DNA from: Kineothrix sp. MB12-C1 | GTDB taxonomy: Bacteria > Bacillota > Clostridia > Lachnospirales > Lachnospiraceae | Direction of reading: 5' to 3' | Assembly: GCF_030863805.1 (NCBI RefSeq) | Contig: NZ_CP132957.1 | Coordinates: 3,162,001-3,226,000, forward strand | Length of the DNA: 64,000 bases | In this document: piece after piece, positions 23,392-54,364 of the stretch | How positions within the stretch are numbered: position 1 is the first letter of the stretch | Layout of the letters: every line of letters begins with the position of its first letter | Position numbers and translations under genes: made by a program | Notes under the pieces: model-generated | Told to the model about the DNA's origin: nothing | Databases searched by the model: none | The model's input: only the letters and a program-made list of their open reading frames with translations

Positions 23392-23584
23392 AAACATACC
23401 TCGGCCGCTTGCGGACAAGGTATATTATTTTAATAATATTATACTGCGCCGAGCAAAGCGAGTGTGCAAAAACATACCTCGGCCGCTTGCGGACAAGGTA
23501 TAATATTTTAATAATATTATACTGCGCCGAGCAAAGCGAGTGTGCAAAAAACATACTGTGTCCGCTTGCGGACAAGGTATATAT
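23391..23584. repeat. Interspersed hairpin repeat, array of about 2.5 units (copy 3)
   Basis: A half unit holding only the terminal hairpin (ATACC..GGCCGCTTG..GGTAT) is followed by two complete units joined by ATTTTAATA. The units carry the same GCGCCGAGCAAAGCGAGTGTGC core as the other sites. Open frames crossing the array on both strands merely translate the repeat. Confidence 0.85.
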
Positions 23585-23589
23585 TGCCG

Positions 23590-24021
23590 TTAGTGATTGC
23601 AGATATCCGGATTATCCTCCGCTTTTTTTCGTTCGTTTAGTTCATCGCGGAATGTTTCTATATAGGAAGCGCCGAACTGATGCATTAATTCCAAGAGCGG
23701 AATGATTTTTTTTCCAATTTCTGTAATTTCGTATTCCACTTTGGGTGGGACTGTAGGATATACGTGTCTGGTAATCAGATGATCGGCTTCCAGACTTCTA
23801 AGCTGTTTCGTGAGCATTTTCTGTGTAACATCGGGCATACGTTTTAAAATCTCATTAAAACGGAGCACTTTATTACTTAGAAACCATAAAATCATGACCT
23901 TGCGCTTTCCCGAAAGCAGATTATAAGCTAAGACCATAGGACATAAATCGTCTTTCAGGCAAGTTTCCCTCATATAACAGTTTTCGTGTTTTTTTTCATT
24001 TGTTTCCATCGATTTATTCAT
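23590..24021 (-). CDS. HxlR-family winged-helix regulator
   Basis: A 143-residue protein with the HxlR layout: early cysteine (CPMVLAYNLLSGKRKVMILW), then LRFNEILKRMPDVTQKMLTK as the recognition region and a wing (PKVEYEITEIGKKI). The N-terminal 25 residues hold several cysteines, which in this family sometimes sense redox state or aldehydes. It is divergent from ndh2 across a 415-bp region and is a candidate regulator of the electron-transfer genes. ATG 24021 has only a close AGAAAGG before it, so the start is uncertain. Confidence 0.82.
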   Translation of the reverse strand: MNKSMETNEKKHENCYMRETCLKDDLCPMVLAYNLLSGKRKVMILWFLSNKVLRFNEILKRMPDVTQKMLTKQLRSLEADHLITRHVYPTVPPKVEYEITEIGKKIIPLLELMHQFGASYIETFRDELNERKKAEDNPDICNH

Positions 24022-24436: not shown

Positions 24437-26554
24437 ATGAAAAAAGTAGTGATTATAGGAGCGGGCTATGCCGGTATCCTCACAGCAAAAAAGATTGCTA
24501 AGAAAGTTAAAAAACAGGGAGATGTAGAGATTACAATTATCGACAGGAATCCCTTTCACACGATGCTTACGGAACTTCATGAAGTTGCGGCAGGCAGGGT
24601 GGATGAAGATAGCATTAAGATCAGCTTAAAGAAAGTATTCGCGGGCAGAAAAGTCAACGTGAAGTTGGATACCGTGAAGGAAGTAGATTTTGAAGCCAAG
24701 ATTGTAAAAGGTGAAGGGGCTTCCTATGAATATGACTATCTTGTAATTGCAGCCGGTTCAAGACCAACTTTTTATGGTGTTCCCGGAGCAGAAGAATTAA
24801 CATTCAAGCTTTGGTCTTATGAAGATGCGATTAAGCTAAAAGACCATATTTTAAATACATTCCGCAAGGCAGCTCAGGAAAGAGATGCCAAAGAACGTAA
24901 AAGGCTGCTCACTTTCTATGTGATTGGTGCAGGTTTTACCGGTGTGGAAATGGTTGGCGAGCTCGCGGAATATGTTCCTATTCTTTGTGAAAAATTTGAA
25001 ATCGACAGAAGCGAAGTAACCTTAGTGAACGTGGACGGTTTAAGCAGACCGATTCCTAATCTTCCTGAGAAGTTATCAGCTAAAGTTGCTAAACGATTAA
25101 ATAAAATGGGCGTAGAGCTTTGCATGGAAGCGAACGTGACCCGTGTCAGCGAAACGACAATTGAACTCACCTGCAAAGGAAAAAGCGAAACAAGAAGTGT
25201 AGGAACGGTAATCTGGGGTGCAGGAATCCAGAGTTGCGAAATCACGGCAGCGGCGGCGGATGCACTTGAGAAGCAAAGAGGCGGTCGTATTCCTGTAGAT
25301 AAATATCTTCGTTCCACAAAGGATGAATCCGTATATGTAGTTGGTGATAATATGTATTATGTTCCGGAAGGAGAAGAAATGCCTGTTCCCCAGATGGTGG
25401 AGAATGCGGAGCAGAGTTCTCATACAGCGGCTCATAATATTGTGAATGCATTGACAGGAAAAGGTGAAATGGAAGAATATAAGCCGTCATTCCACGGAGT
25501 AATGGTATGCGTAGGCGGACGTTACGGTACGGCGCACGTAGGCCTTCCCGGACATTTCTTCAGCCTTCCTTCTTTCTTGGCGATGTTTGCGAAGCACTTT
25601 ATCAACGTTATTTATTTTATACAAGTACTTGGATGGAATAAAGTATTCAGTTATATTAAGCATGAATTTTTTACAATCCGCGACTGCAGAAGCTTTGTGG
25701 GAGGACATTTTTCTAACAGAACACCTAGCTTTTTACTGGTTCCTCTTCGTTTCTGGCTCGGTGCGGTATGGTTATTCGAAGGTATTATGAAGATTATGGA
25801 AGGTTGGCTCAATGAGCCCAAGCTTCAGGGATTCTTCGGTGGAGCGAATGCTTGGTATCAAAGTATTATCAATCCGGGTGCAGCCGGGGATGCGGTGAGC
25901 GCAGCGACAGGAGCGGCAGCTGCAGCAGCAGATACAGTGAGCGCAGCCACAGGAGCAGCAACGGCTGCGGCAGATGTAGTAAGTGCGGCGACAGGCGCGG
26001 CAACGGCAGCGGCAGACGTAGTAAGTGCGGCAACAGGAGCAGCAGTGGCAGCAGCAGATGCGGTAAGCGCAGCCACAGGAGCAGCTACAGCAGCAGTTTC
26101 TTCCGGCACAGTAATCTTTAACTTTAATATTTTAGGACTTTTCAGAACTATTTTTGTAAGTGGAACAGATCTCGCCGCTTCCAAGCTTTCTGATTTAGCT
26201 TTTAAGTTGGATGTACCGCTTATGAATTGGTTCGTGGATACTTTTATCCTTCCTTCCGATGGAATACAGCTTGCGATGCAGATATTTATTGTAGTGGCAG
26301 AGATTCTTATTGGACTCGCATTGATGGGCGGTCTCTTTACAACTCCTGCAGCGGCTGTGTCGTTAATATTACAGTTTATGTTCGTATGTACGACAGGTTT
26401 ATATCTTGGAACGTTCTGGATGGTATTTGCAGGTATCGCTGTTTTGATTGGTGCAGGAAGAACAATTGGTCTCGATTACTATGTGATGCCGGCGTTAAAG
26501 AAAGCATGGAAGAAGCTTCCGATTATTCGCAAATCATATCTGTACCATGACTAG
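24437..26554 (+). CDS. ndh2: Type II NADH dehydrogenase with C-terminal membrane domain (Ndh2 of extracellular electron transfer)
   Basis: A 705-residue flavoprotein. The FAD-binding motif VVIIGAGYAGILTAKK (residues 4-19) and the second nucleotide-binding motif VIGAGFTGVEMVGELAEY (about 162-179) are typical of NDH-2. Beyond residue 430 comes a DoxX-like multi-helix membrane part, interrupted by five 14-residue Ala-rich repeats (485-554). In Listeria the extracellular-electron-transfer Ndh2 likewise has an added membrane domain. It would oxidise NADH and pass electrons to demethylmenaquinone. It leads the seven-gene locus, and ATG 24437 follows CAAGGAGAAGAAGCG. Confidence 0.9.
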   Translation: MKKVVIIGAGYAGILTAKKIAKKVKKQGDVEITIIDRNPFHTMLTELHEVAAGRVDEDSIKISLKKVFAGRKVNVKLDTVKEVDFEAKIVKGEGASYEYDYLVIAAGSRPTFYGVPGAEELTFKLWSYEDAIKLKDHILNTFRKAAQERDAKERKRLLTFYVIGAGFTGVEMVGELAEYVPILCEKFEIDRSEVTLVNVDGLSRPIPNLPEKLSAKVAKRLNKMGVELCMEANVTRVSETTIELTCKGKSETRSVGTVIWGAGIQSCEITAAAADALEKQRGGRIPVDKYLRSTKDESVYVVGDNMYYVPEGEEMPVPQMVENAEQSSHTAAHNIVNALTGKGEMEEYKPSFHGVMVCVGGRYGTAHVGLPGHFFSLPSFLAMFAKHFINVIYFIQVLGWNKVFSYIKHEFFTIRDCRSFVGGHFSNRTPSFLLVPLRFWLGAVWLFEGIMKIMEGWLNEPKLQGFFGGANAWYQSIINPGAAGDAVSAATGAAAAAADTVSAATGAATAAADVVSAATGAATAAADVVSAATGAAVAAADAVSAATGAATAAVSSGTVIFNFNILGLFRTIFVSGTDLAASKLSDLAFKLDVPLMNWFVDTFILPSDGIQLAMQIFIVVAEILIGLALMGGLFTTPAAAVSLILQFMFVCTTGLYLGTFWMVFAGIAVLIGAGRTIGLDYYVMPALKKAWKKLPIIRKSYLYHD
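25889..26098 (+). repeat. 42-bp tandem repeat, five copies, inside ndh2
   Basis: Five 42-bp units encode variants of DxVSAATGAATAAA. The protein repeat is nearly perfect while third codon positions vary, which argues that the amino-acid sequence is maintained. It falls between the first DoxX-like helix region and the following membrane helices. Confidence 0.9.
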
Positions 26555-26573
26555 AAAAGATAAGGGTGAAATA

Positions 26574-27530
26574 ATGGAGAAATTAACATATGAAGAAGCT
26601 TATGAGCTTGTAAAAAAAGAGATTCATAAGGCTTTGACCAAATCACCCCGCATAATTAACGAATATTTAACTCATTTATCTGCCTCTCAGGGGAAAATGA
26701 TTCGGGCAGTTTCCGTGCTGATCTCTGCAGGGGACGGTGAAGGGAAGATTAATCCCGGCGCCGTACAGGCTGCAGCGGCAATTGAAATCATTCATCTGGC
26801 GTCGCTCGTTCACGATGACGTTATCGACAACGCAGACTTAAGAAGAGGACAGGAGACGCTCCAGAAGAAATATGGAAAGCGTACTGCGGTTATTTGCGGG
26901 GACTACTTGCTTAGCCTGGCGCTTAAGATGGTATCTGCAATTCCTGAAGGAAAGAAATACTTGGATATGCGTCTGTCTGACTATATAAGCAGATTGTGCC
27001 TTGGGGAGTTACTGCAGCATATCAATAATAAGAATTTGGATTTAACAGTATTTGATTATATAAAAATTATATCGGGGAAGACGGCTGCTCTTTTCGAAGC
27101 CTCTTTCTTGGCCGGTGCTCTGTTAGGAGACTATTCTCCGGAAGAAGTGAAGAAATACAAAAAGATTGGGAATTACATCGGTTTGATTTTCCAGCTTCAG
27201 GATGATTGCCTCGATTTCGATAAGACCGTTGAGACAGCAAGGAAGCCTGTTCAGTCAGATTATGAGCAAGGAGTTATTACCCTTCCTTTAATCCATGCCT
27301 TAGAGAGATTGCCGGAATTCCGAAAGAAGGCATCTAATAACGCCATTGTCAGAGACGATATCAATCAAGCGGTGGAAGAAGCCGGCGGTCTGGGATATAC
27401 GAGGCAAATAATAGATAGATATTATGAGAAGGCAGAACGTTATATCAACAAGCTTGACACAACCTGGGAAAAGCGTATGCGCATCGCTTCTATCGTGCGT
27501 ATGGCAGCTGGGATAAAGGAAGAAGCATAA
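26574..27530 (+). CDS. dmkB: Trans-isoprenyl diphosphate synthase (DmkB-like)
   Basis: A 318-residue polyprenyl synthetase. The first Asp-rich motif is HDDVIDNADLRRG (about residues 82-94) and the second QLQDDCLDFDKT (about 211-222); both bind Mg-diphosphate. It likely makes the long prenyl tail for demethylmenaquinone. ATG 26574 follows AAGGGTGA; the frame extends further back and overlaps the end of ndh2. It sits between ndh2 and the UbiA-type gene, in the role of Listeria DmkB. Confidence 0.88.
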   Translation: MEKLTYEEAYELVKKEIHKALTKSPRIINEYLTHLSASQGKMIRAVSVLISAGDGEGKINPGAVQAAAAIEIIHLASLVHDDVIDNADLRRGQETLQKKYGKRTAVICGDYLLSLALKMVSAIPEGKKYLDMRLSDYISRLCLGELLQHINNKNLDLTVFDYIKIISGKTAALFEASFLAGALLGDYSPEEVKKYKKIGNYIGLIFQLQDDCLDFDKTVETARKPVQSDYEQGVITLPLIHALERLPEFRKKASNNAIVRDDINQAVEEAGGLGYTRQIIDRYYEKAERYINKLDTTWEKRMRIASIVRMAAGIKEEA

Positions 27531-27544
27531 GGAAGGAAAAGACA

Positions 27545-28456
27545 TTGTTTGGACGATTTTTGAGCTATGTAGAAATCAGAACAAAGATTACAAGTACCCT
27601 TACCTTTTTACTGACGATAGGATTTCTTCTATATCAGGGACAAAAGATGCAGTGGGGAAAGACCTTTTTATTCTTTGCGGGGATGTTCTGTTTTGATCTG
27701 ACAACTACTGCTATTAATAATTACATCGACTCAAAGGGCAATGGGCAGGCGCTTAATTTCGGAAGAAAACAGTCGCTGATTATCATTTATGTATTGTTTG
27801 GTATTAGTGTGGCGTTCGGGCTTTCTCTCGCTTTTGTGACAGATTTGGTAATTCTTTTTATTGGAGGTCTTTGCTTTTTATGCGGAGTATTCTATACCTA
27901 TGGCCCCTTGCCTATCTCGAGAATGCCTTTGGGAGAAATAATGTCCGGTCTATTCTACGGAGCGATGATTCCTTTTATCTTGATGTATATTAATTCTCCG
28001 GATGGTACCTTTTTGAGTTATGCCATCAGTGTAGAGACCGTATCGTTGTCTATACAGGTCATTCCGATGCTTAAACTGTTGCTTTTCTCCATGATTCCTT
28101 TTGCAGTAACGGCTAATATTATGTTAGCCAATAATACCTGTGATTTGGAGAAGGATATAGCGGTAAAAAGGCATACTTTGCCCTATTACATCGGAAAAAA
28201 GGCAGCACTTATCCTTTTTTCAGGTCTTTATTATATGACCTATTTGGCACTTGTTTTGTTAGTAATATGTAAGATATTCTCTCCGGTGGTTCTTATTTCT
28301 CTTATAACAATAATTCCGGTACAGAGAAATATTAATAAATTTTCAGAGAAACAGGAGAAGTCCACCACCTTTAGCGTTAGTATTAAGAACTTCGTACTTA
28401 TTATGGGGGCGGATATTTTGACCATGTTTCTGGCAGTGATTCTTAATAGAATCTGA
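27545..28456 (+). CDS. dmkA: UbiA-family prenyltransferase (DmkA/MenA-like)
   Basis: A 303-residue membrane enzyme with about eight hydrophobic segments. The two Asp-rich loops of the UbiA family appear as INNYIDSKGN (about residues 58-67) and NNTCDLEKDIAVKRHTLP (about 197-214). It probably prenylates 1,4-dihydroxy-2-naphthoate to give demethylmenaquinone for the NADH dehydrogenase. The start is TTG 27545, after AAGGAAGGAAAAGACA, 14 bp past the synthase gene. The precursor pathway is not in this window, so the quinone could depend on other loci. Confidence 0.87.
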   Translation: MFGRFLSYVEIRTKITSTLTFLLTIGFLLYQGQKMQWGKTFLFFAGMFCFDLTTTAINNYIDSKGNGQALNFGRKQSLIIIYVLFGISVAFGLSLAFVTDLVILFIGGLCFLCGVFYTYGPLPISRMPLGEIMSGLFYGAMIPFILMYINSPDGTFLSYAISVETVSLSIQVIPMLKLLLFSMIPFAVTANIMLANNTCDLEKDIAVKRHTLPYYIGKKAALILFSGLYYMTYLALVLLVICKIFSPVVLISLITIIPVQRNINKFSEKQEKSTTFSVSIKNFVLIMGADILTMFLAVILNRI

Positions 28457-28534
28457 AACTATGTTATTCATTCGGTCAATTAAGGCCGGGTTGAAATAAA
28501 AAAGAGCCGCGAGACGGCACAAAAGGAGGAAAAT

Positions 28535-29641
28535 ATGAAAAAAGCAATAGCATTATTATTGTGCGCAACTTTAGTAGTTGGAACACTTACCGCTTGTGGC
28601 GGCGGAACAGCACAGCCGGAAGGAACTGAAACAACAGAAGCAGTAGAGGAAACAACAGAAGAAGCAGAAGTTGTTGAAGAAGAAGTAGAAACAGAGGAAA
28701 CAGCAGAAGTAGCCGGAGACGCAGCAAAGACCGGTCTTGCAGTAATTACATCCATTGGAAAGTCAGCACCGGCTGGTGAAGAAGATGGATTGGCACAGGT
28801 AGATTCCACAGTTGCAGCGGTACTCGTTGGAGCAGACGGAACAATCCTTGACTGCAGCATTGATGCAGCTCAGACTAAGATTAATTTCTCAGCAGAAGGT
28901 AAGGTGGTAACAGATCTTGCTACTACATTTGCATCCAAGCAGGATCTCGGTGCTGACTATGGTATGGCAGTAGCTTCCGCTATCGGTAAAGAGTGGAATG
29001 AGCAGGCAAATGCTTTCGCTGAATATGTAATTGGTAAGACAATTGATGAAGTAAAAGGTATCGCACTGAGCGAAGGTGTACCTACGGATGCTGACTTAAC
29101 ATCATCTGTAACAGTTCATGTAACTGATTTTATCGCTGTAATTGAAAAAGCAGTAGCTAATGCAAAAGAATTAGGCGCAGGCAGCACAGATAAGCTTGGT
29201 CTTGCTGTAACAACAGAGATTTCCAAATCTAAAGATGCAGCTGCTGATGCAGAAGGTCTTGCACAGGCTTATTCCACATATGCAGCAGTAACAACCGATG
29301 CTGATGGAAAAGTTACAAGCAGCTATATCGATGCTTCTCAGGGTAATGTAAACTTCGATGCAACAGGAGCAATTACATCTGACTTAGCATCAGCACCAGC
29401 TACAAAGCAGGAGCTTGGTGAAGGTTATGGTATGAAAGCAGCTTCCACTATCGGTAAAGAATGGAATGAGCAGGCAGATGCTTTCTCCGCATATGTAGTT
29501 GGAAAGACTGCATCTGAAGTGAGCGGAATCGCTATTGATGATCAGGGCCTTGCAGCAGATGCTGATTTAATCAGTTCTGTAACTGTACATGTAGGACCTT
29601 TCGTTTCAATCGTTGAAAAGGCTGCAGCAAACGCAAAATAA
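28535..29641 (+). CDS. pplA: FMN-binding lipoprotein with two repeated domains (PplA-like)
   Basis: A 368-residue secreted lipoprotein: signal MKKAIALLLCATLVVGTLTAC with lipobox LTAC, an acidic Glu/Thr-rich linker (about 25-65), then two homologous FMN-binding domains (about 66-212 and 222-366). Each has a KQ(D/E)LG..YGM motif followed by IGKEWNEQA. By comparison with ApbE-modified domains, Ser134 and Thr290 just before KQ are candidate acceptors; this is uncertain. In Listeria PplA passes electrons to extracellular iron or flavins. RBS is AAAGGAGGAAAAT; a terminator follows at 29667. Confidence 0.9.
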   Translation: MKKAIALLLCATLVVGTLTACGGGTAQPEGTETTEAVEETTEEAEVVEEEVETEETAEVAGDAAKTGLAVITSIGKSAPAGEEDGLAQVDSTVAAVLVGADGTILDCSIDAAQTKINFSAEGKVVTDLATTFASKQDLGADYGMAVASAIGKEWNEQANAFAEYVIGKTIDEVKGIALSEGVPTDADLTSSVTVHVTDFIAVIEKAVANAKELGAGSTDKLGLAVTTEISKSKDAAADAEGLAQAYSTYAAVTTDADGKVTSSYIDASQGNVNFDATGAITSDLASAPATKQELGEGYGMKAASTIGKEWNEQADAFSAYVVGKTASEVSGIAIDDQGLAADADLISSVTVHVGPFVSIVEKAAANAK

Positions 29642-29666
29642 TATTAAGTAAGTATATATTTACGGG

Positions 29667-29710
29667 GGGTGCATTATTTTCAAGAAATAGTGCACCCTTT
29701 ATTTTTTATA
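29667..29710 (+). terminator. Terminator after pplA
   Basis: GGGTGCA.TATTT (from 29667) pairs with AAATA.TGCACCC (about 29685-29697), followed by TTTATTTTTT. Partial termination here would make pplA mRNA more abundant than the downstream fmnB-eetA-eetB mRNA. Confidence 0.75.
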
Positions 29711-29735
29711 ATTTAAGTTTTCAGAGGTGAATAAT

Positions 29736-30791
29736 TTGAAAAGGAAAATAACAGCATTTCTTTTGGGAATAATGGCATTGTTAACAATGTCGGCTTGTTC
29801 CATAAATAGTGAAAAGCGGTATGAGGCGAGGTTTCTGGAGTTATTTGATACGGCTAGCATAATTGTCGGTTATGCCGGAAATGAAGAGGAGTTTGGCAGA
29901 TATAGCCAGATGGCCTATGATGAGTTGGAGATATACAATAATCTTTTCGATATTTACAGCGATTATGAAGGTGTCAATAATATAAAGACAATTAACGATA
30001 ATGCGGGGATTGCTCCGGTTGAGGTGGACAAGAAGATTATCGAGCTTCTTTTGTTTTCGAAAGATATGTATGACTTGACAGAAGGAAAAGTGAATGTGGC
30101 TTTCGGATCCGTTCTCTCCCTCTGGCATGATCATAGAAGTGATGGCCTAGATAATCCGGAAAGGGCAACGATTCCCGATTTCGAGGAGCTGAAAGAGAGA
30201 AATCAATATGTCGATATCGATGATATGATCATAGATACAGAAGCTTCTACTGTTTATTTGAAGGACCCCAATATGCGTCTGGATGTGGGGGCTATCGCCA
30301 AAGGATATGCGGTAGAACAGGTAGCACTTTTTATGGAAGAAGCGGGCTTTGTTGACGGGATGATCTCTGTTGGAGGGAATGTAAGAACTCTGGGGAGTAA
30401 ACATGATGAAAACGGGAATAAAGTTCCATGGAGTGTAGGGATCCAAAATCCCGATTTATCCAGCGAAGAAAAGAATCTTTATATTTTGAATCTGAGCGAA
30501 AGCTCTCTTGTAACGAGCGGTGTCTATGAACGCTATTATGTGGTGGATGGAAAGCCATATCATCATATTATCGATCCTGTGACGCTCATGCCGGCAGAAT
30601 ACTTTGCATCCGTTTCTATTATATGTCGAGATTCCGGTGAGGCGGATGCTCTTTCAACAGCGGCATTCAATATGGGATATGAAGAAGGCTCCAAGTTGAT
30701 AGAAGAACTTGATGGCGTGGAAGCATTGTGGGTATATGCGGATGGTACGATGGAATATAGCAGTGGATTTCAGGAATTGGTGAAAAAGTAA
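29736..30791 (+). CDS. fmnB: FAD:protein FMN transferase (ApbE/FmnB-like)
   Basis: A 351-residue lipoprotein (signal ending LLTMSAC) that attaches FMN to serine/threonine in exported flavoproteins. ApbE landmarks are LDVGAIAKGYAVEQV (about residues 186-200), ISVGGNVRTLGSK (about 210) and the Mg-binding HHIIDPVTLMPAE (about 270-282). The start is TTG 29736 behind AGAGGTGA; a GTG nine bases upstream overlaps that site and is less likely. Its natural target is probably the adjacent PplA. Confidence 0.9.
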   Translation: MKRKITAFLLGIMALLTMSACSINSEKRYEARFLELFDTASIIVGYAGNEEEFGRYSQMAYDELEIYNNLFDIYSDYEGVNNIKTINDNAGIAPVEVDKKIIELLLFSKDMYDLTEGKVNVAFGSVLSLWHDHRSDGLDNPERATIPDFEELKERNQYVDIDDMIIDTEASTVYLKDPNMRLDVGAIAKGYAVEQVALFMEEAGFVDGMISVGGNVRTLGSKHDENGNKVPWSVGIQNPDLSSEEKNLYILNLSESSLVTSGVYERYYVVDGKPYHHIIDPVTLMPAEYFASVSIICRDSGEADALSTAAFNMGYEEGSKLIEELDGVEALWVYADGTMEYSSGFQELVKK

Positions 30792-30804
30792 GAATGGTGG
30801 TAAT

Positions 30805-31173
30805 ATGTTAAAAAAGAATGATGTAATACTCGTCGGCGGATTATTAATTATCGCTTTGGCAGCTATGTTATTCGTTTTCCTTACGAAAGAGGAGGGCGGT
30901 AAAGTAGTAGTGACGGTAGACGGGGAAATATATGAAACGTTATCGTTAAATGAAGATATTACCTTATCTATTGGTGAGGAAGATGAGCGTTATAATGTCC
31001 TTGAAATTAAAGATGGGAAAGTGTCTATGGCAGAGGCGAACTGCCCGGATAAGCTTTGCGTGCGTCATGCTCCCATTCATTACAATCACGAATCTATCAT
31101 ATGTCTGCCCCACAAGGTAACGATAGCAATTCAAAATGGAGAAGAACAGGATATCGATATTATAGCGCAATAG
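30805..31173 (+). CDS. eetA: NusG domain II-containing membrane protein (EetA-like)
   Basis: A 122-residue protein with one N-terminal membrane helix (VILVGGLLIIALAAMLFVFL) and an extracytoplasmic NusG_II domain, seen from the conserved cysteines CPDKLCVRHAPI and ICLPHKVTIAI. In Listeria EetA is needed for extracellular electron transfer; its exact task is unresolved. The gene lies 13 bp after the ApbE-type gene and 12 bp before eetB, so the three are co-transcribed. Confidence 0.85.
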   Translation: MLKKNDVILVGGLLIIALAAMLFVFLTKEEGGKVVVTVDGEIYETLSLNEDITLSIGEEDERYNVLEIKDGKVSMAEANCPDKLCVRHAPIHYNHESIICLPHKVTIAIQNGEEQDIDIIAQ

Positions 31174-31185
31174 TTAGGAGAACAT

Positions 31186-31689
31186 ATGAAAACTAGGAAC
31201 GTGGCGATGTACGGGATGCTTATCGCACTCGCTTTTATTTTGAGTTATATAGAGAGTATTATACCGATACCGGTGCCGATACCGGGAATTAAAATAGGGC
31301 TCGCTAATCTTGTAGTAATTACAGCTTTATATACGATGGGGGCCAAACAGGCCTTTGTGCTGTCCATGATTCGAATTATTCTGGTAGGCTTCACATTCGG
31401 AAGTCCGTCTACTATGATGTTCAGTTTTGCCGGTGGAGTATTGAGCTGGTTATTAATGGTACTCGCAAAGAGATGGAAGGCTTTTTCCATGACGGGAGTG
31501 AGCATTCTCGGTGGAATGGGACATAATATAGGACAGATTATAGTAGCAATTATTATATTAAAGACGAGTGTACTTATTTACTACCTGCCATTTCTCATTA
31601 TCTCCGGTCTTGTAACAGGCGCGGCAATTGGAATGGTAGGAGCACTTATTACTTCTAAAATTGAGAAAGTTAATGTTAGGAAAGTATAA
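31186..31689 (+). CDS. eetB: Gx transporter family membrane protein (EetB-like)
   Basis: A 167-residue membrane protein with four to five helices, of the family often labelled heptaprenyl diphosphate synthase component I. It resembles substrate-capture subunits of ECF transporters and in Listeria forms a pair with EetA, possibly bringing in or moving flavin. Recognisable parts are the loop IPIPVPIPGIKIGLANLVV and the helix MMFSFAGGVLSWLLM. The last codons AAA GTA TAA run directly into the repeat at 31684, which supplies the stop codon. Confidence 0.85.
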   Translation: MKTRNVAMYGMLIALAFILSYIESIIPIPVPIPGIKIGLANLVVITALYTMGAKQAFVLSMIRIILVGFTFGSPSTMMFSFAGGVLSWLLMVLAKRWKAFSMTGVSILGGMGHNIGQIIVAIIILKTSVLIYYLPFLIISGLVTGAAIGMVGALITSKIEKVNVRKV

Positions 31690-31766
31690 TATTTTAATAA
31701 ATATTGCGCCGAGCAAAGCGAGTGTGCAAAAAACATACTGTGTCCGCTTGCGGACAAAGTATAATA
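31684..31766. repeat. Interspersed hairpin repeat, copy 4
   Basis: GTATAATATTTTAATAAATATTGCGCC..., with the core GCCGAGCAAAGCGAGTGTGC and terminal hairpin ATACTGTGTCCG-CTTG-CGGACAAAGTAT. Its first bases overlap the last two codons of eetB. Confidence 0.85.
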
Positions 31767-31899: not shown

Positions 31900-32459
31900 A
31901 TGAATAAACCTAAAATTGTAGCGATCGTTGGCTCGCTAAGAAAGAACTCTTATAATTTACAGTTAGCCAAGCTGACAAAAGAAATCATTGGTGAAAGAGC
32001 AGAATTAGAGATTTTGGATTATACGGATGTTCCTTATATGAACGAAGATATTGAATATCCCGCGCCGAAGTCTGTTGCACGAGTTCGTGAAGTTATAAAA
32101 GCGGCGGATGCTGTATGGTTTTTTACCCCGGAATATAATCATTCTTACCCAGGAGTATTGAAGAATCTTATCGATTGGCTTTCAAGACCTATAAGTGATA
32201 CCGGCCTCAGGTGCTCGCTGGTAAACCTGCTATAATTAGCGGTGTTGGTCTGGGAATAACAGGAACTGCGATAGCACAGGATTATCTTGTGTCTCTCCTT
32301 AGTTTCATTAATATGAGAATGATGAACCAGCCCCGTTTGACCGTTCCTAATGCATGGCAGCTTGTGGATGAGGAAGGGAAGCTGGAATTGAAAGATGGAG
32401 AAGCCTTTTTGAAGGCTCAGGTAGATGCCTTTATGGTGTTCTTAGAAGAGAAAAGATAA
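31900..32459 (+). pseudogene. NADPH-dependent FMN reductase, single frameshift
   Basis: The N-terminal frame (from ATG 31900; IVAIVGSLRKNSYN, the flavodoxin-like phosphate loop, then FFTPEYNHSYPGVLKN) runs to a stop at 32235, but family homology shifts near 32205 into another frame reading VLAGKPAIISGVGLGITGT to 32459. One extra C in the GGCCTC stretch would restore SDTGPQVLAGKP, so a single base appears lost. The intact protein would be about 186 residues and reduce flavins or quinones. It could be a sequencing error or a real inactivation. Confidence 0.8.
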
Positions 32460-45452: not shown

Positions 45453-45462
45453 TATGATACCA

Positions 45463-45630
45463 GGGTCAAAAGGTCATGCGTTTCATGCCAGCATGAAAAA
45501 ACATGGCTTTGGGACCCGCAAAACATGAGAAAGTAGCCCAAATAGGGCGGATTTCGAATGTTTTAGGATTGTGAAAGCACAAAGTGCGTAGCAATCCGTA
45601 GGTATCATGGGGCAAAAGACCTTTTAACCC
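45463..45630. repeat. 168-bp element with matching inverted ends
   Basis: GGGTCAAAAGGTC (45463-45475) mirrors GACCTTTTAACCC (45618-45630) at 12 of 13 positions; just outside and inside, ATGATACC (45454-45461) mirrors GGTATCAT (45601-45608). The interior has further small hairpins (CATG...CATG) and no gene. It may be a MITE-like element or a structured RNA. Confidence 0.5.
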
Positions 45631-54202: not shown

Positions 54203-54364
54203 GTATAATATTTAACGATATTATACTGCACCGAGCAAAGCGAGTGTGCAAAAAACATACTGTGTCCGCTTGCGGACAAAGTATAATATTTAACGATATT
54301 ATACTGCGCCGAGCAAAGCGAGTGTGCAAAAAGCATACCGCGGCTGCTTGCGGCTAAGGTATAC
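54203..54364. repeat. Interspersed hairpin repeat, two tandem units (copy 6)
   Basis: Begins directly after the response-regulator stop codon. Two units (cores CACCGAGCAAAGCGAGTGTG and GCGCCGAGCAAAGCGAGTG) are joined by ATATTTAACGATATT. The first hairpin has ATACT/AGTAT ends, the second ATACC/GGTAT. The array separates the regulator gene from its kinase gene. Confidence 0.88.

Follow-up and report, generated by a model that had tools for sequence, protein, structure and literature searches.

The seven-gene locus and its products

The stretch of DNA analysed here, 64,000 nucleotides from Kineothrix sp. MB12-C1 (contig NZ_CP132957.1, forward strand; hereafter the window), carries seven tightly packed genes, all on the + strand at 24437-31689. 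Read from the list of open reading frames (ORFs) and their translations, they are ndh2, dmkB, dmkA, a lipoprotein gene, fmnB, eetA and eetB, with intergenic distances of -8 to 85 bases. An earlier note on this DNA had described these adjacent same-strand genes as an extracellular electron transfer (EET) locus. The ORFs are as it had them, and the EET reading is borne out by the Pfam families, by BLASTP against Listeria and by a profile-profile link of the lipoprotein. Judged from its sequence, the segment is soundly labelled a clostridial variant of the FLEET type (flavin-based extracellular electron transfer). Loci of this type are already known; the new point is likely to be a flavinylation-like motif in a loop of the type II NADH dehydrogenase Ndh2, present here in five copies. 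The 42-bp repeats within ndh2 (25889-26096), together with the motif array that they encode, are the most informative feature of the locus and did not figure in the earlier note.

Pfam puts six of the seven products in the expected families, the exception being the lipoprotein. The first gene, ndh2 (24437-26554), encodes a 705-aa type II NADH dehydrogenase whose C-terminus bears a DoxX/DoxD-like membrane extension (Pyr_redox_2, E 3.6e-40). It is followed by dmkB (26547-27530), for a polyprenyl diphosphate synthase (polyprenyl_synt, 1.4e-60), which perhaps starts instead at 26574 (Met 10, with a purine-rich stretch 5' of it), and by dmkA (27545-28456), for a UbiA-type 1,4-dihydroxy-2-naphthoate (DHNA) prenyltransferase (UbiA, 1.1e-18) that matches NF004752 at 3.1e-75, under the curated cut-off of that model. 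The pplA-like lipoprotein gene (28535-29641) encodes two divergent FMN_bind-type domains, as discussed below; fmnB/apbE (29727-30791) encodes a FAD:protein FMN transferase (ApbE, 1.2e-69). The last two genes are eetA (30805-31173), for a NusG domain II protein (NusG_II, PF07009, 4.9e-31), and eetB (31186-31689), for a Gx transporter family protein that is FAD-export ECF-S-like (Hpre_diP_synt_I, PF07456, 2.1e-42). We take Hpre_diP_synt_I to be the Gx-transporter/EetB family; both products thus lie in the families on which the earlier note had let its EET reading depend.

BLASTP identities to the annotated locus of Listeria monocytogenes are 42% for Ndh2 (with an additional second match in its C-terminal part), 38% for DmkB, 35% for FmnB, 29% for EetA and 36% for EetB; DmkA, compared by phmmer only, scores 126 bits. 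The window and the Listeria FLEET locus (L022) share an Ndh2 with membrane extension, DmkB, EetA, EetB and a lipoprotein with two FMN-site repeats. They also share the catalytic residues of FmnB: Ser257, Arg262, His273 and Asp301, named for the Listeria enzyme, are kept in a pairwise alignment (PMC8906456; papers cited by PMC number are represented here by excerpts, to which all statements about them apply). The one-for-one match with Listeria claimed in the earlier note stands for the gene identities but not for the arrangement. In Listeria, one strand carries fmnA, fmnB and pplA and the opposite strand ndh2, eetA, eetB and dmkB, whereas in the window all seven genes share a strand and follow another order. 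The window locus also differs in having no fmnA (ECF-T), which was sought within the seven genes and not genome-wide. In two other loci (L016 and L021), fmnA is present within the 9-kb flanks. A distant relative, Acetoanaerobium noterae, has the first five genes in the same order, and neither eetA nor eetB turned up in its stretch; in Faecalicatena contorta and Muricomes intestini all seven genes lie around ndh2. These two species are also named relatives by their Ndh2 (80% and 77%, respectively). We take both to be Lachnospiraceae, which agrees with the Lachnospiraceae-like host proposed before.

The lipoprotein is linked to PplA by distant homology. It does not match Pfam FMN_bind (E up to 1), a whole-genome FMN_bind scan gave the same result, and BLASTP against Listeria PplA found nothing significant (best E 1.2); Listeria PplA itself matches FMN_bind at 1.8e-12. 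When 16 members of the lipoprotein family were compared profile to profile (hhalign) with nine PplA-type proteins, of which three are intermediates (L069, L070 and L253), the two sets were connected with a probability of 98.9% and an E-value of 1.6e-17. The intermediates match FMN_bind (L070, 1.1e-6; L253, 3.3e-8; L069, 1.6e-5), and the lipoproteins of L070 (6841-7833) and L253 (6639-7553) have the sites DAISGVT and DVISGVT. The SSVT of the window family is paired by hhalign with the ISGVT of the intermediates. The window thus has two variant FMN-site motifs, DLTSSVT at 29093-29113, which stands opposite the DAISGVT of one of the intermediates in the alignment, and DLISSVT at 29564-29584, placed by the family alignment and the profile-profile comparison; the Listeria lipoprotein has SGAT. 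Because the intermediates with ISGVT match FMN_bind, the site seems to have drifted from SGAT through SGVT to SSVT.

The double-FMN-domain lipoprotein of the earlier note is therefore right as to distant homology, but it is not a Pfam FMN_bind protein, and in Listeria PplA the FMN is carried by a different motif. That note had also held that a lipoprotein outside FMN_bind would undo the EET reading. The Pfam result agrees with this wording, but we rejected the conclusion, since the profile-profile comparison (E 1.6e-17) and the intermediates L070 and L253 mark the product as a divergent FMN_bind protein linked to PplA-type proteins. Also rejected was the idea, drawn from phmmer searches with Listeria PplA, that many relatives are without PplA and hence have an orphan ApbE: FMN_bind scans show two-domain PplA-type proteins in many such loci.

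The motif array in the Ndh2 membrane extension

The membrane extension of the window Ndh2 matches DoxD weakly in Pfam (E 0.023, below the cut-off), and the Ndh2 of the relative L010 matches DoxX above the cut-off. Two membrane helices are predicted in the extension: a first at residues 432-450 (25730-25786), with a hydropathy of 1.57 that is barely over the threshold, and a second at residues 616-634 (26282-26338), with a hydropathy of 2.53. Between these hydrophobic segments lies a predicted extracytosolic loop, residues 455-612 (25799-26272). Its 158 residues include 4 K/R and 12 D/E, and the 26-residue C-terminal tail (680-705) has 6 K/R. An inside position of the FAD/NADH domain, the hydrophobic segments and the charge pattern would together place the loop outside; on this hydropathy and charge evidence, it probably faces the outside of the membrane.

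Inside the loop are five tandem, in-frame 42-bp units (25889-26096; Tandem Repeats Finder (TRF), 5.0 copies, 79% match) that encode 14 residues each, of the form DxVSAAT-GAAxAAx. Unit by unit, the encoded sequences are DAVSAATGAAAAAA, DTVSAATGAATAAA, DVVSAATGAATAAA, DVVSAATGAAVAAA and DAVSAATGAATAAV. The translated unit codons give five copies of a seven-residue motif, DAVSAAT (25889-25909), DTVSAAT (25931-25951), DVVSAAT (25973-25993), DVVSAAT again (26015-26035) and DAVSAAT (26057-26077), whose last Thr is a candidate FMN site. Motif positions 1, 3, 4, 5, 6 and 7 are invariant across the units, and at five of these six the units differ by synonymous codons (the Thr codon is the exception). 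The only varying position is the second (A, T, V, V, A), which is free in the ApbE motif.

The five copies have the shape of the ApbE/FmnB motif D-x-x-[ST]-G-A-[ST], with the G replaced by A in each. The seven residues of this motif suffice for modification (PMC12052999). According to the same source, about 50% of flavinylation is left after a Gly-to-Ala change in a Klebsiella pneumoniae substrate motif, and about as much after Ala-to-Val alone; an ApbE tag is also functional in surface loops, to a lower degree. By analogy, the DxVSAAT of the window Ndh2 would fall within the tolerance of ApbE for G to A.

FmnB is the only ApbE found in the host genome (one match in the genome scan). The host also has an rnfCDGEAB operon, its genes named by reading of the ORFs, in which RnfD carries DAYSGAT and RnfG carries DAISGAT. 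If Rnf works, FmnB accepts canonical SGAT sites, and as the sole ApbE it presumably serves them; these sites resemble DAVSAAT more than DLTSSVT. It could be argued that the locus serves flavoprotein assembly and not external electron transfer, such that EetB and FmnB would feed FMN to RnfD and RnfG, and Ndh2 with DmkAB would form an NADH-quinone module for another acceptor. A complete rnfCDGEAB with two SGAT sites needs an ApbE, and the only one of the genome lies in this locus. Distant relatives, however, keep the genes for Ndh2, DmkAB, the lipoprotein and FmnB side by side, for which supplying Rnf with flavin would not by itself be a reason, and we consider this explanation improbable.

Conservation of the loop motif among Ndh2 relatives

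Ndh2 sequences were drawn from relatives (10/61 genomes), named genomes (7 loci), plasmid-collection records, a sample of the phylum (59/398 genomes matching, partly with plain 400-residue NDH-2, one fragment left out) and a sample of the order (48/392 genomes matching, some overlapping the earlier samples). The 110 extended Ndh2, minus two exact duplicates, gave 108 proteins, which fall into 44 clusters when the N-terminal part is grouped at 70% identity. The loop was taken to run from the first membrane segment to the second; the 108 loops sum to 8,960 aa and the remainder of the proteins to 58,697 aa. Two regular expressions were used, a relaxed one, [DEQ]..[ST][GAS]A[ST], and a canonical one, [DEQ]..[ST]GA[ST], in which [DEQ] is derived from native FMN_bind sites; the null was 300 composition-keeping shuffles of the loops. 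Motifs were counted on TRF-defined units and whole loops, and counting on motif-picked units was discarded as circular.

The relaxed motif occurs 108 times in the loops, where 56 of the 108 proteins have it, versus once in the much longer remainder; after shuffling, the mean number of loops with it is 1.0 and the maximum 5. The canonical motif is found in 19 of the 108 loops (shuffled mean 0.3, maximum 3) and the shorter [ST]GA[ST] in 32 (shuffled mean 2.6, maximum 8), neither of them occurring outside the loops. By cluster, at least half of the members have the relaxed form in 19 of 44. The motif is thus kept in the Ndh2 loop beyond chance across the phylum, with counts that are not independent, as the sequences are related. 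The longest of the arrays compared for spacing, in the Ndh2 of L063 (7393-9627), has seven DAVTAAT exactly 14 residues apart. That of L061 (879-2915) has DAVSAAT three times head to tail, the minimal seven-residue motif with no spacer.

The family of genome G297 is Enterococcus-like by its 68-75% identity to the Ndh2 of E. raffinosus, and such an Ndh2 is present in 26 of its 29 genomes. The canonical motif is found in 20 of 25 loops (as DATSGAS in 13) and [ST]GA[ST] in 24 of 25, and neither occurs outside the loop in any of the 25 proteins; one interrupted copy is excluded, one gene (L271) is already in the set of 108 as L074, and the species are related, so that these counts are not independent either. 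In the relative G833 (L290/L291), the Ndh2 reading frame is broken by stops.

Of 32 loci examined for native FMN_bind sites of the carrier genomes, 23 have the form [DEQ]-[AG]-[ILV]-[ST]-G-A-T, and two of these sites are DAVTGAT, one residue off DAVTAAT. Stand-alone DoxD-like proteins served as controls: 20 loci yielded 13 parsed loops, none with the seven-residue motif and one with SAAS. Three Ndh2 (L240, L241 and L242) have no trace of the motif, and directly downstream of all three is a multi-FMN_bind gene. By Pfam, the genes beside these motif-less Ndh2 encode four FMN_bind domains in both L246 and L247 and two in L245, where the reading frame is cut by the end of the contig and includes a single intact SGAT. 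A custom FMN_bind profile scan listed a four-domain protein in no other of 78 loci. Such a neighbour is a possible complement to a missing Ndh2 motif, the three cases being few and the genomes maybe related.

A number of findings weigh against flavinylation of the loop. The canonical D-x-x-[ST]-G-A-[ST] is absent from the window Ndh2, all five copies having A for G, and in place of the five repeats Listeria has a single AATSGAS, without the Asp. The regular expressions were set after the sequences had been inspected. The canonical form reaches half or more of the members in only 6 of the 44 clusters, and 10 of the 19 canonical loops are from close relatives with 48-residue loops and so are not independent. 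Even [DEQ]-x-x-[ST]-x-A-[ST] is missing from 49 of the 108 loops; 30 of these 49 are of at most 45 aa and have KLVAGAS, KLVSGSS, LVSGAS or similar, a weak match, and nine longer loops (L009, L209, L210, L215, L226, L227, L228, L235 and L239) have degenerate forms only, such as EATASAS. Two of the four units of the L060 array are without the Ser/Thr at position 4. ApbE was found in each of the 96 further carrier genomes that were scanned (55/55 and 41/41), which is weak evidence, being a count among carriers only and not set against a base rate in the phylum, and the FmnB products named for Listeria are PplA and FrdA (PMC9094743). Within the array itself, the hydropathy scan finds residues 528-546 weakly hydrophobic (1.51, over the threshold), and 18 of the 108 relatives have such an above-threshold segment entirely within their loop, compared with 0 of the 41 with loops of less than 60 residues. 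The outside position of the loop is therefore not secure, which makes its flavinylation slightly less probable. Finally, the 14- and 7-residue spacing is also compatible with an Ala-rich helix, and a heptad-like spacing as in L061 could be structural.

An alternative is a plain FLEET locus with FMN on the PplA-like lipoprotein only. The array would then resemble the ApbE motif by coincidence and serve as a spacer rich in Ala, Ser and Thr, whether helical, stalk-like or associated with the membrane. The Ala-rich periods and the weak hydrophobicity of the array suit such a spacer, as do arrays without Ser/Thr at position 4 (L009, L226 and L228), the wide variation in loop length among relatives and the report of PplA as the FMN carrier of Listeria (PMC8906456). 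A spacer is harder to reconcile with loops of 48-58 residues that have a single canonical DGTSGAS, DATTGAS or DTTSGAT and no such array, or with the failure of shuffled loops of the same composition to give the observed counts. In the G297 family, moreover, 24 of 25 loops retain [ST]GA[ST] despite variable surroundings, and the seven-residue motif is absent from the 13 parsed DoxD controls. On balance, we regard the spacer as possible but somewhat doubtful.

The candidate electron route and the surroundings of the locus

Taking these arguments together, we lean slightly towards the view that the locus is a FLEET variant in which FmnB flavinylates the Ndh2 loop as an outward electron carrier. 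Ndh2 would oxidise NADH in the cytosol and reduce (demethyl)menaquinone prenylated by DmkA/DmkB. EetB, with ECF partners encoded elsewhere, would export FAD, whose FMN moiety FmnB would transfer to outside proteins, Ndh2 itself among them. With FMN on the final Thr of each of the five DxVSAAT repeats, Ndh2 would bear a short flavin chain of its own. Electrons would reach these loop flavins from quinol or the membrane domain, and the PplA-like lipoprotein, free flavins or iron would receive them next. We infer the topology, the FMN attachment and the electron path from the protein sequences, as we do the dumping of NADH electrons by the host; that the window Ndh2 carries FMN is an even call.

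The quinone for this route may come from outside the cell. No MenD was found above the cut-off in the host genome (two sub-threshold matches scored 62 and 61 bits versus 244), and MqnA/D were not found in it. With MenD and MqnA/D absent, DmkA would probably need imported DHNA or quinone, and the host probably depends on such import as far as these two routes, the ones searched, are concerned. L. plantarum likewise needs imported DHNA or quinone (PMC9888254).

How FmnB would divide its activity between Ndh2 and the lipoprotein is a separate matter. Among 29 PplA-like or intermediate proteins in 78 loci, none has SGAT at the FMN site, nor indeed [ST]GA[ST]; the looser [ST][GAS]A[ST] is found in three of the 29, beside the lipobox Cys in L249, apparently in the signal peptide in L248 and elsewhere in L262. 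One could suppose that FmnB acts mainly on the variant lipoprotein sites, [DE]-L-x-[AST]-S-V-[ST], and that the sites on Ndh2 are bystanders, modified at low occupancy and irrelevant to electron flow. Two variant sites are indeed kept across most of the PplA-like family and align with DAISGVT of the intermediate family, which matches FMN_bind, and about 50% of flavinylation is left after Ala-to-Val alone (PMC12052999). The window lipoprotein, however, is changed at both conserved small residues, the absence of [ST]GA[ST] from that site holds for all 29 proteins, and the conservation of the Ndh2 motif speaks against a neutral bystander. We therefore find this division of labour rather unlikely.

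Flavinylation of Ndh2 would extend the known range of ApbE substrates. The window Ndh2 shares its motif shape, the adjacency of apbE and the predicted outside location with the named substrates (NqrC, RnfG, PplA, DUF2271, DUF3570, FMN_red and Flavodoxin_4; PMC12052999, PMC8238504, PMC11334425), and FMN_red tails are, like the Ndh2 loop, unstructured extensions with motif copies. A loop of an NADH dehydrogenase is not among the substrates named in these excerpts, and the window copies differ in having Ala for Gly. Several flavin sites per protein are likewise found in multi-flavinylated proteins with several FMN_bind domains (PMC10339131, PMC11334425), whereas the window Ndh2 has bare seven-residue loop motifs without the FMN_bind fold. 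The name Ndh2 is absent from the main text of two flavinylation surveys, no title or abstract retrieved in searches of open-licence PubMed Central papers proposes a flavinylated Ndh2, and the excerpts of PMC11925238, PMC12501876 and PMC13134045 contain nothing bearing on Ndh2.

The EET systems of Enterococcus (Ndh3) and L. plantarum (Ndh2) have the same type of NADH dehydrogenase, and PplA is dispensable in them in some conditions (PMC9864754, PMC9888254, PMC8837199). Reduction of Fe3+ by E. faecalis requires EetB and Ndh3 but not PplA, and the proteins between reduced demethylmenaquinone and iron are marked as unknown, the authors leaving the mechanism after the quinone open (PMC9864754). For L. 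plantarum, iron reduction without PplA is explained by some unknown oxidoreductase or another unknown route (PMC9888254). Flavinylation of the dehydrogenase is not proposed in the excerpts of the Enterococcus and L. plantarum papers. Listeria EetB participates in FAD export for flavinylation (PMC9973259), and a need for EetB where PplA is dispensable thus suggests another flavinylated protein. By analogy with the window, an Ndh3 with a loop motif is a candidate for this extra protein in Enterococcus; the loops of E. raffinosus and E. gilvus have QVTTGAS (the loop of E. faecalis itself was not read). As an account of the L. plantarum data, Ndh2 flavinylation is weakened, as loops that we presume to be Lactobacillus-like have KLVAGAS only.

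It may be suggested, tentatively and with a confidence just short of even, that EET-type Ndh2 are a new class of ApbE substrate, that many Bacillota have a single loop site whereas the relatives of the window have two to seven in tandem as a "flavin tether", and that these enzymes provide the missing quinol-to-outside carrier in PplA-independent transfer. If true, a flavinylated Ndh2 loop would name the missing carrier out of the quinone pool, account for the need for FAD export by EetB where PplA is not needed, and offer a new, testable electron route out of the cell.

Some features surrounding the locus deserve mention. No riboswitch was found above threshold in an Rfam scan of the window, and promoter and terminator scans of the window gave results close to shuffled background. 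Divergent from ndh2, on the - strand at 23590-24021, is a gene whose product we take by its look to be an HxlR-like regulator; this candidate could control the EET locus. Just downstream of the locus, an FMN-reductase-like gene (identified by eye) is in two frames, 31900-32235 and 32211-32459, and may be a broken gene. The palindrome TGTCCGC(TT/AA)GCGGACA recurs in the window at 23559-23574, 31741-31756 and 54263-54278, with variants at 2323, 12291, 23402, 23480 and 41769. Two exact copies flank the EET locus and have the common flank GAGCAAAGCGAGTGTGCAAAAAACATAC (only the flanks of these two copies were compared). With up to two mismatches allowed, the palindrome has 11 matches on both strands versus 0.02 expected, and it looks like an interspersed repeat family. 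The only Rfam match above threshold in the window is a Clostridiales-1 sRNA at 45455-45607 on the + strand (115.7 bits).

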